From: Natronorubrum sulfidifaciens JCM 14089 | GTDB taxonomy: Archaea > Halobacteriota > Halobacteria > Halobacteriales > Natrialbaceae | Assembly (NCBI RefSeq): GCF_000337735.1 | Contig: NZ_AOHX01000026.1 | Coordinates: forward strand, 426,657-461,211 | Direction: 5' to 3' | Length of the DNA stretch: 34,555 nucleotides | In this document: positions 4,319 through 34,555 of the stretch, one piece after another | Layout: the number at the start of each line of letters is the position of its first letter | How positions within the stretch are numbered: position 1 is the stretch's first letter | Notes under the pieces: generated by a model | What the model was told of the DNA's origin: nothing | Databases searched by the model: none | Seen by the model: the letters and a program-made list of their open reading frames with translations, nothing else | Program-made: the position numbers and the translations under genes

Positions 4319-5884
4319 ATGACTGAGACACCAGACCACGACACGACGGACGTACTGATCGTCGGCTCCGGCATCGCCGGCTGTGCGGCAACACTCGCGG
4401 CGGCGCGGGCGGGCGCTGATGTCTGCCTCGTGACGAAAGCGCAGCGGCCGGACGACGCGAGCACCGACTGGGCCCAAGGCGGGATCTCGACCACCCGCGG
4501 CGATCCCGAGAGCCTGAAAGCCGACATGCTGGCGGCCAGCGACGACACTGCAGACGAGGACGCGATCGACGTCCTCCTTGAGGAGGCCGACGACGCCATC
4601 GAGGACGTGTTGCTCGAGACCCTCGAGATCGAGTTCGACGAGGGCGACGACGGGTTCGACTACACTCGCGAGGCCGGCCACTCGAGTCGGCGGATTCTCC
4701 ACGTCGACGCGATGACGGGCACGCACATCCTCCGGCCGTTTCTCAACTACCTCGACGACCACGAGCGCGTCGAGATTCGACAGGACACGGCAGCCCTCGA
4801 CCTCATCACTCACGAGGGACGGATCCACGGCGTGCTGACCGACGAGGCGGCCGACGGTCACCCGATCTTCGCCGGCGCGACGATCCTCGCAACGGGTGGG
4901 ATCGGCGAACTGTACTCCCGATCGACGAACCCCGCCGATGCGACGGGCGACGGGATCGCTATGGCTGCGCTGGCCGGAGCCGAGGTGGCCGACCTCGAGT
5001 ACGTCCAGTTCCATCCGACCGCGTACGCCGGTTGCGAGGCACAACGAGACTCGAGGCAGAGCGGCGGAGCCACAGAGCAGGACGATCCGTTTTTGCTCTC
5101 CGAGGCGCTGCGCGGCGAAGGCGCGGTGTTGCGAAACGGCGAGGGCGATCGGTTCATGGCCGACTACCACCCCGACGCCGAACTCGCACCGCGGGACGTC
5201 GTCGCCCGCGCCGTCGCCCACGAACGCGAAGCGACCGGCGAGGTCGTCTTGGACGTGCGCACGCTCGAGGGCGAGTTCGAATCCGAATTCCCCGCGATCG
5301 CACGGATGTGTCGCGACCGAGGTGTCAAGGGCGCAGAAATCCCCGTCGCGCCCTGTGAACACTTCCTCTGTGGCGGAATCGACGTCGACGCGTTCGGACG
5401 AACCTCGCTCGACCGACTCTACGCCGTCGGCGAGTGTTCACGGACCGGCGTTCACGGCGCGAACCGACTAGCGAGTACAAGCCTGCTCGAGGGACTCGTC
5501 TGGGGGCTGCGTGCTGGCGCGGATGCAACGGGTCACGAGCCCGCCGTCGTCGAGGTACCCGACCTTCGTAACAGCGACCCAGACCTGCCTGAACGCTTTG
5601 CCACCGAGAAGGCCATCCGACTCAAGCAGACGATGGATGCGTCGCTGGGCCTCGAGCGCGACCCGGACGAAATCGCCCGCGCGAGCGCCGTTCTCCGGCG
5701 GCTCAAAGGCGAACTCGACGCCTACATTCGCACGCGGACGGCTCGCGAACTGTACGAACTTCGGCACGCCTGTGTCACCGCCTTGCTGATCGCACGGGCA
5801 GCGAGCGAGAACCCCGATTCGAAAGGCTGTCACTACGTCGTTGCCGACTCGAGTGAGACGGTCGACCACACCCATGCTTACTGA
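4319..5884 (+). CDS. nadB: L-aspartate oxidase NadB
   Basis: FAD-dependent oxidation of L-aspartate to iminoaspartate, the substrate of NadA. The 521-residue protein has an N-terminal dinucleotide-binding motif (VLIVGSGIAGCAATLAAARAG), the succinate-dehydrogenase-like signatures DWAQGGIS, EYVQFHPTAY and HGANRLASTSLLEGLVWG, and the C-terminal helical domain of the fumarate reductase/aspartate oxidase family. It begins three bases after nadA and overlaps nadC by 11 bases, so the three genes form one tight operon. Frames open upstream of 4319 are only readthrough of the nadA region in another frame. The oxidase, in place of an NAD-dependent aspartate dehydrogenase, implies oxygen or fumarate as electron acceptor. 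Confidence 0.97.
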   Translation: MTETPDHDTTDVLIVGSGIAGCAATLAAARAGADVCLVTKAQRPDDASTDWAQGGISTTRGDPESLKADMLAASDDTADEDAIDVLLEEADDAIEDVLLETLEIEFDEGDDGFDYTREAGHSSRRILHVDAMTGTHILRPFLNYLDDHERVEIRQDTAALDLITHEGRIHGVLTDEAADGHPIFAGATILATGGIGELYSRSTNPADATGDGIAMAALAGAEVADLEYVQFHPTAYAGCEAQRDSRQSGGATEQDDPFLLSEALRGEGAVLRNGEGDRFMADYHPDAELAPRDVVARAVAHEREATGEVVLDVRTLEGEFESEFPAIARMCRDRGVKGAEIPVAPCEHFLCGGIDVDAFGRTSLDRLYAVGECSRTGVHGANRLASTSLLEGLVWGLRAGADATGHEPAVVEVPDLRNSDPDLPERFATEKAIRLKQTMDASLGLERDPDEIARASAVLRRLKGELDAYIRTRTARELYELRHACVTALLIARAASENPDSKGCHYVVADSSETVDHTHAY

Positions 5885-6686
5885 CACACAGATCGAAGAC
5901 TGGCTCCGGGAGGACCTCGGCCACCACGACGTTACCAACGAGGTGCCGGGTGAGACGGATGGCCGACTCGTCGCGAACGAATCCGGCGTCGTGGCGGGCC
6001 TCGAGGCCGCGCGGGCGGTCTTCGACTATCTCGACGTCGACGTGGTCGACGCGCTCGAGGACGGCACCGCCGTCGAACCGGGCGACAACCTCCTCCGCGT
6101 CGAGGGACCAGCCCGCGGCGTGCTCCGTGGCGAACGCGTTGCAGTGAATCTCGTCGGTCACGCAGCCGGCATCGCGACCGCCACCCACGAGGCCGTCGAG
6201 GCGGCCCGCACCGAATCCGACGACGTTCGGATCGCCGCCACGCGGAAGACGACGCCCGGCCTGCGCGGCCTCGAGAAACGCGCCGTCGTCGCGGGTGGCG
6301 GCGACACCCACCGGCTGGACCTCTCGCATATGGTGATGGTGAAAGACAATCATATCGCCGAACTGGGCCTCGAGGACGCGATTTCTCACTTCCGTGAGCG
6401 CGTTTCCTTCACGACGAAACTCGAGGTCGAGGTCGAAACCGTCGACGACGCCCCGCGGGCGGCCGCAGCGGGAGCGGACATCGTCCTGCTCGACAACATG
6501 GCTCCCGACGACGTCGCGGCGGCTGTCGGCGCACTCGAAGACCACGACGTCCTCGCGGAGGCCAGTGGTGGGATCACTCTCGAGGCCGTCCCGGACTACG
6601 CCGCAACGGGCGTCGACGTGATCTCGATGGGAGCACTCACGCATTCGGCACCGTCGCTCGATCTTTCGTTTCGGACGGGTGCGTGA
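5874..6686 (+). CDS. nadC: Nicotinate-nucleotide pyrophosphorylase NadC
   Basis: Quinolinate phosphoribosyltransferase: converts quinolinate and PRPP to nicotinate mononucleotide with loss of CO2, completing the branch made by NadB and NadA. The 270 residues carry REDLGHHDVTNEV near the N-terminus, GERVAVNLVGHAAGIATAT, AATRKTTPGLRGLEKRAVVAGGG, HRLDLSHMVMVKDNHI and the C-terminal LEASGG-type strand (here LAEASGGITLEAVPDYAATGVD), all standard for the family. The ATG at 5874 overlaps the nadB stop and fits the usual family N-terminus (MLTDTQIEDWLREDLG). It is the last gene of the operon; tRNA-Leu repeats follow about 30 bases downstream. Confidence 0.97.
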   Translation: MLTDTQIEDWLREDLGHHDVTNEVPGETDGRLVANESGVVAGLEAARAVFDYLDVDVVDALEDGTAVEPGDNLLRVEGPARGVLRGERVAVNLVGHAAGIATATHEAVEAARTESDDVRIAATRKTTPGLRGLEKRAVVAGGGDTHRLDLSHMVMVKDNHIAELGLEDAISHFRERVSFTTKLEVEVETVDDAPRAAAAGADIVLLDNMAPDDVAAAVGALEDHDVLAEASGGITLEAVPDYAATGVDVISMGALTHSAPSLDLSFRTGA

Positions 6687-6714
6687 GGCAAGGATTGGGA
6701 CTCGAGTCAACAGT

Positions 6715-6904
6715 GCGAGGGTTCTGATTCAAACCTAGATGCCGCAGTCGCCGCTCACGGTCGTTCGAGTTGGGAGGCGAGAGCTGGGATTTGAACCACG
6801 CCCAGACGGTCCGGGTCACTCGCTTCGCTCGTTTCCCGGGCTGCGACTGGTCTGATTCAAATCCAGATGCTGCAGTTGCCACTCACGGTGTGTTCGCGTC
6901 GACA
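6715..6904. repeat. Stack of tRNA-Leu 3'-end copies
   Basis: Immediately beyond the 3' end of tRNA-Leu (which lies on the minus strand) are partial copies of that end. GCGAGAGCTGGGATTTGAAC at 6777 repeats the tRNA's GCGAGGGCTGGGATTTGAAC with one change, and GCGAGGG at 6715 begins a further fragment. A 39-base segment starting TCTGATTCAAA recurs at 6723-6761 and 6851-6889 with about five differences. The region therefore looks like two successive insertions or duplications at the tRNA end. No integrase gene is present. Confidence 0.75.
6787..6864. repeat. Palindromic element fused to tRNA-Leu T-loop copy
   Basis: A 78-base element bounded by GGATTTGAA (6787-6795) and its inverse TTCAAATCC (6856-6864), both matching the tRNA-Leu T-arm. 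The core starts CACGCCCAGACGGTCC, contains the inner hairpin CCGGG...CCCGG around CGCTTCGCTCG, and ends CTGGTCTGATTCAAAT. A closely similar core occurs beside tRNA-Arg at 25551-25632, but there the ends match the tRNA-Arg sequence. It codes for nothing recognisable. Confidence 0.7.
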
Positions 6905-6988
6905 TGCGAGGGCTGGGATTTGAACCCAGGGACCCCTACGGGAGCGGGTCTTAAGCCCACCGCCGTTGGCCTGCTTGGCTACCCTCGC
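6905..6988 (-). tRNA. tRNA-Leu (anticodon UAA)
   Basis: Read on the minus strand, the 84-base gene folds with acceptor GCGAGGG/CCCTCGC and discriminator A. The anticodon stem is GTGGG/CCCGC around the loop CTTAAGA, giving anticodon UAA. A long variable arm (CTCCCGTAGGGG region) marks it as a class II tRNA. The T-loop GGTTCAAATCC is canonical. CCA is not encoded, so the CCA-adding enzyme at 29159 must complete it. Its 3' end is followed by repeated partial copies of itself. Confidence 0.95.
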
Positions 6989-7080
6989 ACAGAAGTGCAC
7001 TTGAGGATAGTACCCCACCCGGAATGTGCGTTTCGATGTCGATCCCGACTGGATGACACACGCCGTCTTACGGCGAGCCG

Positions 7081-17112: not shown

Positions 17113-17198
17113 CTATAGTAACAACTGAAACGGTTTACACACCGATCGCACAGCCGTCGTGCGATTGGGTATGCACTGACTTTCAGTGGCTACTATAG
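17113..17198. mobile_element. 86-bp MITE, copy 1
   Basis: Ends are CTATAGTAACAACTGAAA and the inverse of TTTCAGTGGCTACTATAG, matching at 16 of 18 positions. An internal hairpin (ATCGCAC...GTGCGAT) fills the middle. A second 86-base copy lies at 34029-34114 in the other orientation (about 71 of 86 positions the same), with diverged copies at 34177-34262 and 25334-25405. It has no coding capacity and no clear target-site duplication. It sits about 15 bases before the promoter region of the gene at 17242. Confidence 0.75.
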
Positions 17199-20743: not shown

Positions 20744-20911
20744 TGTGCGCACTCAGGGTAGGACGCGATTCAACCTTTCGGAAGCCGACCTTTTCGAGCC
20801 GATCAGTCGATCGATTTCAGTGCCGGGGCTGGGCCAGCAGCGACTCGGCCTCGAGCAACGACAACTGTCGGCCGTTCAGTACGGTGGGCCGGACTGCAGC
20901 GCTCGAGGTCC

Positions 20912-20945
20912 TTTAAGTGCCTCTGGTCATAAGGTGAAGCTACGA
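20912..20945 (+). repeat. 34-bp promoter-like repeat, copy R1
   Basis: Begins TTTAAGTGCCTCTGGTCAT and ends GAAGCTACGA. The TTTAAGT end resembles an archaeal TATA box and the TACGA end falls where transcription would start (about 27 bases on). It lies directly upstream of the nucleotidyltransferase gene. Three further copies of exactly the same length lie at 21957, 22065 and 22175. Confidence 0.7.
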
Positions 20946-20958
20946 AGGGCATTTGGGC

Positions 20959-21921: not shown

Positions 21922-21956
21922 TGCACTCCGTCTCAGCAGTCACGACCCGTTCTCCA

Positions 21957-21990
21957 TTTAAGTGCCTCTGGTCACAAGGTGAAGATACGA
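21957..21990 (+). repeat. 34-bp promoter-like repeat, copy R2
   Basis: Same 34-base unit as R1 with two to three changes (GTCAC, GATACGA). It is followed by GAGAA...TTCTC (a small hairpin at the expected RNA 5' end) and then a larger inverted repeat with GGACAC (22013-22018) and GTGTCC (22037-22042). No coding frame follows, so any product would be an RNA. Confidence 0.7.
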
Positions 21991-22064
21991 CGGGAGAACG
22001 GTCGCTTCTCGAGGACACAACACTACTCAGCGACTGGTGTCCAAACACGTCCTCTCGACATCAC

Positions 22065-22098
22065 TTTAAGTTCCTCTGCCCATAAGGTAGAGCTATGA
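22065..22098 (+). repeat. 34-bp promoter-like repeat, copy R3
   Basis: The most diverged copy (TTTAAGTTCCTCTGCCCAT). Its end reads TATGA instead of TACGA, creating an ATG at 22095 exactly where a leaderless start should be. That opens an 18-codon frame to a TAG at 22149-22151, probably by chance. GGAGA...TCTCC follows as a small hairpin. Confidence 0.65.
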
Positions 22099-22174
22099 CG
22101 GGAGATGGACGTTCTCCGGAACACAGATTCGCGAGTCGTGACTATCGATAGACGTGTGACCTACGTCGCTTCTC

Positions 22175-22208
22175 TTTAAGTGTCTCTGGTCACAAAGTGA
22201 AGCTACGA
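22175..22208 (+). repeat. 34-bp promoter-like repeat, copy R4
   Basis: TTTAAGTGTCTCTGGTCAC ... GAAGCTACGA, 110 bases after R3. A very strong hairpin follows at 22230-22267, so the unit looks like promoter plus terminator of a short RNA of roughly 65 bases. The RNA polymerase epsilon gene begins about 145 bases further on. Confidence 0.68.
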
Positions 22209-22229
22209 AGAGCTTTTCGCGGACCTCGT

Positions 22230-24902: not shown

Positions 24903-25343
24903 ATGTACGACCACATCCTCGTTCCCACCGACGGCAGCGACCACGCAGCAGTTGTCACCGCCCACGCAGCCGAAATCGCGGCGACCAGAGACGCGACCGT
25001 CCACGTCCTCTCGGTCGTCGACGACCGTGCGTTTCTGGTCCTCGATGACGACCGGATCGACGCGGTCCGTGCCGACCTCCGCGCGAACGCACGTGATGCC
25101 GTCGACGATATCGCAACCGAGGCCATCGAACACGGCCTCGAGGTCGAGACGACCATCGACTCGGGCAGCCCAGCGGAGTGTATCGTCGACTACGCTGCCG
25201 AGCACGATATCGACCTCATCGTAATGGGCACGAGCGGCGACGAGTATGAACGAAACGTTGTCGGGAGCGTCTCTCAGCGTGTCGTTCGCGAGGCCTCCAC
25301 ACCTGTTCTTACTGTTGGACCGGACGTCGAAGCTAGCCACTGA
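24903..25343 (+). CDS. Universal stress protein, UspA family
   Basis: A 146-residue alpha/beta nucleotide-binding protein. The N-terminus MYDHILVPTDGSDHA and the phosphate-binding loop VMGTSGDEYERNVVGSVSQRVVREA (G-x2-G-x9-G-S pattern) mark the ATP-binding type. Such proteins usually dimerise and respond to stress or starvation. The last two codons and the stop (AGC CAC TGA, 25335-25343 region) fall within a MITE remnant whose end reads TAGCCACTGA, so the C-terminal VEASH has probably been altered by the insertion. Otherwise the length is normal. It has its own promoter. Confidence 0.92.
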   Translation: MYDHILVPTDGSDHAAVVTAHAAEIAATRDATVHVLSVVDDRAFLVLDDDRIDAVRADLRANARDAVDDIATEAIEHGLEVETTIDSGSPAECIVDYAAEHDIDLIVMGTSGDEYERNVVGSVSQRVVREASTPVLTVGPDVEASH

Positions 25344-25405
25344 ACGTCATTCCACACCCGAGCACGGCTGTGCGATCGGTCTGTAACCCGTTTCAGCTGC
25401 TATAG
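25334..25405. mobile_element. MITE remnant overlapping uspA end
   Basis: About 72 bases of the 86-bp family, in the same orientation as copy 34029. TAGCCACTGA at the left and TTTCAGCTGCTATAG at the right correspond to the family's ends, and CGGCTGTGCGATCGGT in the middle matches the inverse of copy 17113 exactly. The first six bases and a few internal bases are missing. The left end supplies the stop codon of the stress protein gene. Confidence 0.7.
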
Positions 25406-25550
25406 ATTCGTACGATCTCGATAGCGTCCTGATGGTGTCTAGCGGCCGTTCTGAGCTGTGACGTATTTGCTTGAATCCCGTATATAATTCTCCTCCAGCA
25501 CGCACTGCTCGCTGTGTTCGTAGTGTTGTGCTGAAGCAAATCGTCCTGAC

Positions 25551-25632
25551 GGAGATTTGAACACGCCCAGAGGGTCCTGCTCACCTCGCTTCGCTCGGTT
25601 GCGCGGGCTGCCACTGGTCTGCTCAAATCTCC
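25551..25632. repeat. Palindromic element fused to tRNA-Arg T-loop copy
   Basis: 82 bases bounded by GGAGATTTGA (25551-25560) and its perfect inverse TCAAATCTCC (25623-25632). Just before it, CGTCCTGACGGAGATTTGAAC duplicates the 3' end of tRNA-Arg (25694 onward). The core (ACGCCCAGAGGGTCC ... CGCTTCGCTCG ... CTGGTCTG) is the same as in the element beside tRNA-Leu at 6787-6864, but the ends match this tRNA instead. Confidence 0.72.
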
Positions 25633-25640
25633 GAATATGA

Positions 25641-25695
25641 GTTTACACCGACGCGAACGACTCGCTCCGCTCGTCGGTGTTGCGTCGGTGAAAAC
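25641..25695. repeat. Long imperfect hairpin abutting tRNA-Arg
   Basis: GTTTACACCGACGC at the left pairs with GCGTCGGTGAAAAC at the right, with a single unpaired A. The loop contains a second small hairpin, CGAC...GTCG. It separates the palindromic element from tRNA-Arg and reaches its discriminator base. It may end the tRNA transcript or belong to the insertion. Confidence 0.6.
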
Positions 25696-25767
25696 GTCCT
25701 GACGGAGATTTGAACTCCGGTCCCTGGCTCCGCAAGCCAAGAGGATAGTCCACTACCCTACCAGGAC
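25695..25767 (-). tRNA. tRNA-Arg (anticodon GCG)
   Basis: 73 bases on the minus strand. Acceptor GTCCTGG/TCAGGAC (with one G-T pair), discriminator G, anticodon stem TTGGC/GCCAG around TTGCGGA giving GCG, and T-arm CCGGAGTTCAAATCTCCG. CCA is not encoded. A CTTTAAT box (minus strand, 25792-25798) lies about 28 bases upstream of the 5' end. A copy of its 3' 21 bases lies about 150 bases beyond its 3' end. Confidence 0.95.
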
Positions 25768-34028: not shown

Positions 34029-34114
34029 CTATAGTAGCCACTGACCGTCACTGCACACCAGCTCGCACGACAGCTGTGTGGTCTGTGTGTCACTCGTTTC
34101 AGTTGTTACCATAG
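34029..34114. mobile_element. 86-bp MITE, copy 2
   Basis: Exactly 86 bases, from CTATAGTAGCCACTGA to TCAGTTGTTACCATAG, in the opposite orientation to copy 17113. The two agree at about 71 of 86 positions by eye, most strongly at both ends and around GTCGTGCGA. Equal length after divergence shows that the element is a defined unit. Confidence 0.75.
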
Positions 34115-34176: not shown

Positions 34177-34262
34177 ACAGCAAGCCCTATGAAACGATGT
34201 GCACACTAGTCGCATAACTGCCGTGCTATCAGGTGTATATTAACGTGCAGTGGCTACTATCG
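34177..34262. mobile_element. Diverged MITE, copy 3
   Basis: The right half (CGCATAACTGCCGTGCTATC ... TGCAGTGGCTACTAT) aligns without gaps to copy 17113, with about 35 of the last 49 aligned bases the same. The left half keeps TGAAACG at the correct register, but its terminal repeat is lost. In the same orientation as copy 1. Confidence 0.55.
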
Positions 34263-34555
34263 CTCTCACAAATCAGCTCCGGGTTTCTCTCTATTCGATA
34301 TTTCTGTCGTGAATTCCTCGAGTGAACGTCTGTTGTCTCGAGAGTAATGGTACAGATATTCCAGAAATACCTTTTGAGTTAGACGATATTCCAGTTTATA
34401 CACTCGCTTGGTACTGACTATCTTCGAAGTTGTGGTTCGAAGGCCTTATGTATGAACCGGGGATTATCGATATAATACGCAGAAGATGAGGACTCCACAC
34501 CTGCGGTCCGCCGTATAGATGGGGTCTGATGTTAGCCTTGGTAGAAGATGTCGAG
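34263..34555. other. AT-richer tail with no recognisable gene
   Basis: Noticeably richer in A and T than the rest of the window. GATATTCCAG occurs twice exactly 30 bases apart (34355 and 34385), and CTTCGAA (34422-34428) with TTCGAAG (34436-34442) form an inverted repeat. TATAATA lies near 34470. Short frames reach the window edge on both strands, but none shows halophilic composition or a motif. It may be the start of a transferred region beyond the window. Confidence 0.4.

Follow-up and report, generated by a model that had tools for sequence, protein, structure and literature searches.

Gene-less palindromic units with host-following arms behind the tRNA genes of Halobacteriales

Integron attC sites carry two core sequences, R' with the consensus GTTRRRY and R'' with RYYYAAC. 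In Archaea, integrons have been described from 75 metagenome-assembled genomes of nine phyla, in a text without mention of Halobacteria (PMC9668308), and the T-loop is a known exchange region of archaeal integrative elements that target tRNA genes (PMC8371274). SMR-A, a small element of Haloquadratum, is ~110 bp long, has inverted terminal repeats and no transposase, makes no duplication and targets PATEs and IS605 elements (PMC3119063). Here we analyze a 34,555-nt stretch of the Natronorubrum sulfidifaciens JCM 14089 genome (contig NZ_AOHX01000026.1; hereafter the window, meaning the whole stretch), in which two palindromic units lie behind tRNA-Leu(TAA) and tRNA-Arg(GCG). A first-pass annotation had placed them at 6787-6864 and 25551-25632 and claimed that they share a core but take their ends from the host tRNA. 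Both elements are there, on the minus strand and directly 3' of the two tRNA genes. They are not chance resemblances: the observation is confirmed, and the family is much larger than two elements. The reading that we favor, which in our judgment has about an even chance of being right, is that the units are gene-less cassettes that entered by site-specific recombination at G^TTC, with the second hairpin (HP2) as a folded site and a trans-acting tyrosine recombinase as the enzyme.

Anatomy of the units and the duplicated tRNA end

Along the tRNA strand, a unit consists of a first hairpin (HP1), HP2 (R''-core-R') and, last, the final 20 nt of the tRNA repeated exactly. R'', the left arm, is the complement of the host tRNA's T-loop and 3' T-stem; R' is the start of the tail copy, that is, its T-loop. 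As annotated, the core is common to both elements, the duplicated tRNA 3' end joins it at the T-loop (GTTCAAAT...), and an inverted T-loop plus T-stem stands on the far side. The parts are as follows (window coordinates).

6904..6989, minus strand: tRNA-Leu(TAA), which hosts the first unit; the tail (final 20 nt, TTC to the discriminator base) is 6905-6924
6865..6904, minus strand: HP1 (spacer) of the Leu unit, abutting the tRNA 3' end; the GCGAACA..CCGTGAG motif is present, and this copy folds weakly
6856..6864, minus strand: R'' of the Leu unit, GGATTTGAA, which repeats the T-loop and T-stem of tRNA-Leu in inverted form
6796..6855, minus strand: HP2 core of the Leu unit, with the L stem CCAGTCG/CGTCTGG and its T.T mismatch, an inner stem and a GNA loop
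6789-6862, minus strand: covariance-model match of the Leu unit (HP2)
6776..6795, minus strand: R' and tail copy of the Leu unit (TTCAAATCCCAGCTCTCGCC), in which the 3' end of tRNA-Leu recurs
6713..6775, minus strand: decayed second unit behind the Leu unit, with HP1 at ~6737-6775, an R''-like TTTGAA in the 6728-6735 region and an acceptor remnant; the core is lost
25695..25767, minus strand: tRNA-Arg(GCG), which hosts the second unit; its tail is 25695-25714
25633..25694, minus strand: HP1 of the Arg unit, a strong hairpin abutting the tRNA 3' end
25623..25632, minus strand: R'' of the Arg unit, GGAGATTTGA, which repeats the T-loop and T-stem of tRNA-Arg in inverted form
25562..25622, minus strand: HP2 core of the Arg unit (model match 25555-25628)
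25542..25561, minus strand: R' and tail copy of the Arg unit (TTCAAATCTCCGTCAGGACG), matching the 3' end of tRNA-Arg at all 20 nt

No open reading frame fits inside units of 100-150 bp. The predicted DNA folds of the two window copies have z scores of -2.9 and -3.3. Against R1, a covariance model built from 39 units, the Leu unit scores 99 bits and the Arg unit 71, partly by construction, as both are among the training units.

The duplicated stretch is sharp-edged: it runs from G^TTC to the discriminator base, 20 nt at tRNAs. Across 232 tail copies, 83-100% match the tRNA at each of the 20 bases from TTC to the discriminator and agreement then drops, while on the other side it is 84% at the G just ahead of TTC and at chance level three bases ahead of TTC. 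One-base insertions in the tail copies fall within the T-loop in 38 of 46 cases, mostly as a pyrimidine between A57 and A58 (TTCA^YAAT). This insertion was seen in distal tail copies at Lys, Ala, Arg, Met, Ile, Phe, Cys, Pro and other tRNAs (for example at loci L065, L027, L206 and L090), and insertions are far rarer elsewhere in the 20 nt. The added pyrimidine may mark a recombination junction or lock the copy against reuse.

Distribution, host-following arms and fold

With the 104-base element as query, BLASTN found matches in 80 of 100 related genomes. The window genome has 12 good R1 copies, 10 of them behind tRNAs of the Rfam list, one behind a tRNA-Pro outside that list and one an orphan adjoining a decayed tail. 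In five genomes, at least 54 of 80 R1 matches share the strand of a listed tRNA and lie no more than 340 nt downstream of it (~0.4% expected), and several others sit at tRNAs outside the listed set. For an unbiased count we took all 43 tRNA genes of G001 and all 43 of G004, two sister genomes that belong to the genus of the window. The gene's own 20-nt tail recurs one to three times within 640 nt downstream at 28 of the 43 genes in G001 and at 21 of 43 in G004, giving 43 and 30 tail copies in total (2.4% for control tails of other amino acids). At many tRNAs, sister species differ in whether units are present. When 295 genomes from the phylum were surveyed, matches came from 50 of the 53 Halobacteriales genomes among those listed and from none of the remaining ~240, and an exact pattern scan of 84,980 species genomes returned 38 loci, all labelled Halobacteria. 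By these surveys the family is confined to Halobacteriales.

The arms follow the host. In 172 units with a recognisable arm, the match to the unit's own tRNA at five T-stem positions was 3.62, versus 2.53 for other tRNAs (500 permutations, sd 0.06, highest 2.69); in the acceptor part of the arm the own tRNA was weakly better (3.17 of 7 versus 2.84). The arm also mirrors rare host T-loops (TTCGATT of His, TTCGAGT of Asn, and TTCGAA). Hosts with a TTCAAA loop have a TTTGA[AG] arm in 140 of 148 units and TTCGAA hosts a TTCGAA arm in 13 of 15, TTCGAT hosts (His, Leu-CAA) have ATCGAA in all 7, and TTCGAG hosts (Asn) have CTCGA[AG] in both. Fixed ends, or a match to the universal T-loop alone, were rejected on the permutation test and these odd T-loops. 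The claim that the ends co-vary with the host tRNA is supported. Because the two strands of the T-stem are complementary, an inverted copy of the 3' strand and a direct copy of the 5' strand are indistinguishable in that part of R'', and the inverted orientation of the left arm is shown solely by the T-loop part together with the weak acceptor signal.

HP2 forms one helix that comprises, from outside in, the R stem, a small internal loop with a bulged G, the L stem, an internal loop and a variable tip that often closes as a C-GNA-G triloop. The L stem reads CNAGTCG/CGTCTN'G with a conserved T.T mismatch, and its N-N' pair is GC in 67, AU in 45 and CG in 38 cases. We assessed covariation in 125 distinct units in an alignment fitted to the model. 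Standard pairs fill 92% of the pair cells, and 338 cells carry double changes against a shuffled mean of 90 (0 of 500 shuffles reached 338); sliding the structure by 1-3 columns left at most 46. The MAFFT alignment A1 gave the same picture as the model-fitted one. In the inner stem, GU pairs (31) barely exceed AC pairs (17; mismatch column 26-59 excluded), whereas tRNA stems from these genomes have 40 GU versus 3 AC (P 0.002), a difference that leans towards DNA. The folding strand is probably the tRNA-sense strand.

The same evidence bears on the possibility that HP2 is a selected structured RNA made together with the tRNA transcript (a processing signal, decoy or small RNA), its copies being won and lost through ordinary homologous recombination between tails. 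Such an RNA would agree with the position of the units on the tRNA strand in all but one case, with wobble pairs on the sense strand near the R arm, with cores kept at the same tRNA across genera, and with the related core that Haloferacaceae-like genomes have inside a larger repeat, one that is multi-copy and has TATA-like boxes. We nevertheless think it unlikely, given the scarcity of GU in the inner stem, the differing presence of units between sister species at many tRNAs and the lack of any Rfam family at curated thresholds; moreover, homologous recombination alone accounts neither for first insertions nor for a copy behind the protein gene aspS.

Signs of movement and candidate mechanisms

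Insertion of cassettes, the reading that we favor, would leave filled and empty sites. At Arg-TCG and Ile, sister genomes differ by exactly HP1 + HP2 + tail, and at the His tRNA one sister genome has one unit more of exactly this composition, the array differing at its distal end. At Leu-TAG, two genomes have HP1 and the tail in common, with unrelated cores between unchanged arms; at Leu-TAA, two cores stand in swapped order; and at Ser-GGA of genome G063 the arms enclose an inverted core. Frequent inversion was rejected, as this is the one bona fide case among ~180 units, other opposite-strand matches being chance or units of neighboring tRNAs. In genome G023 a core lies directly within the T-loop of a partial tRNA-Gly. 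Genome G024 has a unit behind aspS, a class II aminoacyl-tRNA synthetase gene (Pfam E 8e-34), and the exchange point is again G^TTC. The gene ends in FPRDRQRLSP-stop and the downstream copy in FPRDRQRSSP-stop, 33 nt to the stop codon, with mostly synonymous differences. Since the copy reaches the stop codon, the duplication is a restored target 3' end; a fixed 20-nt target-site duplication, at first favored from aspS, is thereby ruled out. Read in this way, no other single observation would argue as strongly as the aspS unit for Campbell-like site-specific insertion of a cassette bringing its target's end along. The aspS unit also makes it very improbable that a transposase or Cas1-like enzyme inserts the units with a fixed 20-nt duplication, as in CRISPR or casposon insertion. 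The sharp 20-nt duplication at tRNAs and the tandem growth of the arrays would fit such an enzyme, but the 33 nt copied at aspS and their synonymous differences would not. The complementarity of R'' is unaccounted for as well, and the His array differs at its distal rather than its tRNA-proximal end.

The first-pass annotation had proposed insertion or templating at T-arms. Insertion there and copying of the 3' end are supported; templating of the ends at each insertion is not. For 20% of units, the most similar core from a different genus sits behind the same tRNA, fourfold the 4.7% expected by chance. Cores of different tRNAs within one genome showed no excess likeness over expectation, and recent copying between tRNAs of a genome is thus unsupported, for a locus set partly chosen by similarity to the window unit (the G001 and G004 sets were not so chosen). 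In later units of an array, R'' agrees with the tail that opens its own unit and not with the following tail (17 versus 2, a count biased by the faster decay of distal tails). Together, same-tRNA cores and agreement of R'' with its own tail fit cassettes that arrive with matching tail and arm; templating is not needed, because the cores partly form tRNA-specialized lineages. A comparison of gain with loss that used the window genome as third species (Ile, Asn, Arg) met downstream sequence that was too diverged.

In favor of a tyrosine recombinase, tyrosine integrases are present in 9 of 9 genomes tested (none identified as IntI), and larger elements use the same sites. At tRNA-Gly(TCC) of genome G034 (L052), a 2.9-kb element encodes a 369-aa tyrosine integrase (5131-6240), and its flanking repeat, present at both ends, takes in the 3' half of the tRNA together with a complete HP1-HP2 unit; units can therefore travel with such elements. 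In genome G040, a tyrosine-integrase element is joined exactly at G^TTCAAATCTGCC of tRNA-Val, beside the array of that tRNA. That elements of this kind use the same T-loop and carry units would agree with the units being mere scars (attR remnants) of ordinary viruses or plasmids integrating at tRNA T-arms. We give this little credence. HP1 and HP2 are conserved across the order and have no match in 50,697 phage records, the exact pattern has a single match in IMG/VR, a chance one in coding sequence, and both megaplasmid copies sit at tRNA genes. The reading is further weakened because scars of unrelated elements would not have a common covarying core. A virus or plasmid attachment site was rejected on the same phage, IMG/VR and megaplasmid results. 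Gene-bearing cassettes between tail copies were likewise rejected, none being found beyond ordinary integrase elements.

Another candidate mover is a Y1 (HUH) transposase. The units would then be PATE-like, transposase-free relatives of IS200/IS605 elements, moved as single-stranded circles, with HP1 and HP2 as the left- and right-end palindromes, respectively, and R'' as a guide pairing with TTCAA, the site of cleavage or target. Guide-target pairing would directly account for the arm's dependence on its target. Haloquadratum has abundant PATEs (PMC3119063), which likewise lack a transposase and have palindromes near their termini, and the clustering of one-base insertions at TTCA^Y marks a plausible cleavage point. 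However, Y1 matches are absent from genomes G004, G043 and G084 and the window genome has only a broken one, yet all are rich in units, and the R1 model found no unit at 16 Y1 loci. PATEs, moreover, make no target duplication, whereas here the 3' end of the gene is always duplicated. Y1 transposons as the source of the units were rejected on the first two grounds, and the PATE-like reading as a whole has, in our view, only a slim chance.

Site-specific recombination at G^TTC would proceed as follows. A cassette of ~100-150 bp would carry a copy of the last 20 nt of the tRNA at its left end, then HP1, then HP2, with the outer arm R'' complementary to the start of the cassette's own tail. A recombinase acting in trans, in all likelihood a tyrosine recombinase, would recombine folded HP2 with the matching tRNA T-arm at G^TTC; the incoming tail would restore the tRNA, the old tail would be pushed to the far side, and cassettes would accumulate in tandem. 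Larger integrative elements could carry units within their attachment region. We infer that the fold acts as single-stranded DNA and that a single enzyme, a tyrosine recombinase, moves the units as circles. More tentatively, and with somewhat less than an even chance, the family may be a tRNA-anchored integron-like system of Halobacteriales, in which T-arms are the fixed sites, folded single-stranded hairpins with arms matching the target the mobile sites, and a recombinase, of the host or of a mobile element, shuffles gene-less cassettes across most tRNA genes and, occasionally, 3' ends of protein genes.

Several points weigh against cassette insertion by a tyrosine recombinase. Neither a circle nor a new insertion has been observed, and the empty sites could also be deletions between the 20-nt repeats. 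No integrase could be linked to the units, and tyrosine integrases also occur in genomes where no unit was detected. Nor did any gene-bearing cassette turn up that ends in HP2; between tail copies there were only ordinary integrase elements. The wobble pairs adjoining the R arm lie on the sense strand, which RNA would also give, and the persistence of gene-less cassettes across genera is unaccounted for.

A core away from tRNAs with fixed ends would speak against host-following ends. Off-tRNA copies do exist, but the ends of the aspS copy follow its target, and a related off-tRNA repeat in Haloferacaceae-like and Salinarchaeum-like genomes has ends that differ from those of the tRNA units. This second multi-copy repeat, ~260 nt long, has the same core hairpin between ...GAGGCTGGGGAGG.GTGAGG... 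and ...GGGTGGGACTCAAAGGGGCAG. It was seen at L290-L293, L296, L297 and L299-L306 in genomes G091, G253, G308, G194 and G174, with related copies in G084 (L158, L163, L164, L166, L188, L193, L202, L205) and G095 (L181, L187, L192), and several copies are preceded by a TATA-like TTTATAA. It has no Rfam match and looks like a multi-copy structured non-coding RNA or repeat. Separately, partial tRNA-Phe copies that start in the anticodon arm have a different hairpin pair exactly in the T-loop (TTCCCGCGAGCGNAGC.AGCGGGAA and a second one; L032, also L058, L121 and L233).

The window holds other repeats. A 44-nt direct repeat (consensus like CTTTAAGTGCCTCTGGTCACAAGGTGAAGCTACGA) has four copies (20911-20954, 21956-21999, 22064-22107 and 22174-22217) that are 75-89% alike, three of them spaced ~110 nt apart. 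An 86-nt inverted pair (17113-17198 and 34029-34114; 83% complementary, 16.8 kb apart) is a dispersed intergenic repeat with further partial copies at 34190-34263 and 25334-25402.

Comparison with known systems

Rfam 15 at curated thresholds found only tRNAs in the window, the best other match being mascRNA-menRNA (20.9 bits, cut-off 42.5). Neither Rfam nor a literature search, whose reach excluded most subscription papers, yielded a described family with this behavior, in agreement with the first-pass annotation, which knew no named one. The copied tRNA ends and the conserved hairpin with host-matched arms point to an undescribed kind of minimal mobile element. If so, the units would be among the smallest site-specific mobile units known, present in nearly every species of a large archaeal order, and would rewrite the ends of essential tRNA genes without breaking them. 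Two questions would become testable: whether folded single strands recombine outside integrons, and how an element can switch target through a change in the arm that pairs with it. For tRNA annotation and att-site mapping in haloarchaea, many tail copies are to be expected that are not prophage scars.

The likeness to integron attC sites extends to tandem cassettes in one orientation, a single-strand fold in which an outer and an inner arm pair are capped by a variable tip, exchange at G^TT, and an arm complementary to the start of its own cassette; loops and bulge differ in detail. Unlike integron cassettes, those of haloarchaea are gene-less and have no identified integron integrase, their outer arm pairs over ~12 nt and matches a tRNA, and the fixed site is a tRNA gene. 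R' reads GTTC(A/G)AA at essentially all units, and only GTT and AAC agree with the attC consensus. Because R' departs from GTTRRRY and no IntI was identified, we do not file the family as an integron. Tyrosine-integrase elements that target tRNAs use the same sites here and likewise duplicate and restore the 3' end of the target. The units differ from them in having neither integrase nor genes, in their size of ~100-150 bp, in their conserved double hairpin and in occupying tens of different tRNAs in one genome. With PATEs and IS200-IS605 relatives (PMC3119063) they have in common a small size, the absence of a transposase, palindromes near both ends and abundance in halophiles, but they duplicate the 3' end of the target, carry host-following arms of 9-12 nt and are numerous in several genomes without a Y1 transposase. 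SMR-A resembles them in its ~110 bp size, inverted repeats and lack of a transposase, and differs in that its targets are not tRNAs and that it has prominent inverted terminal repeats of its own.
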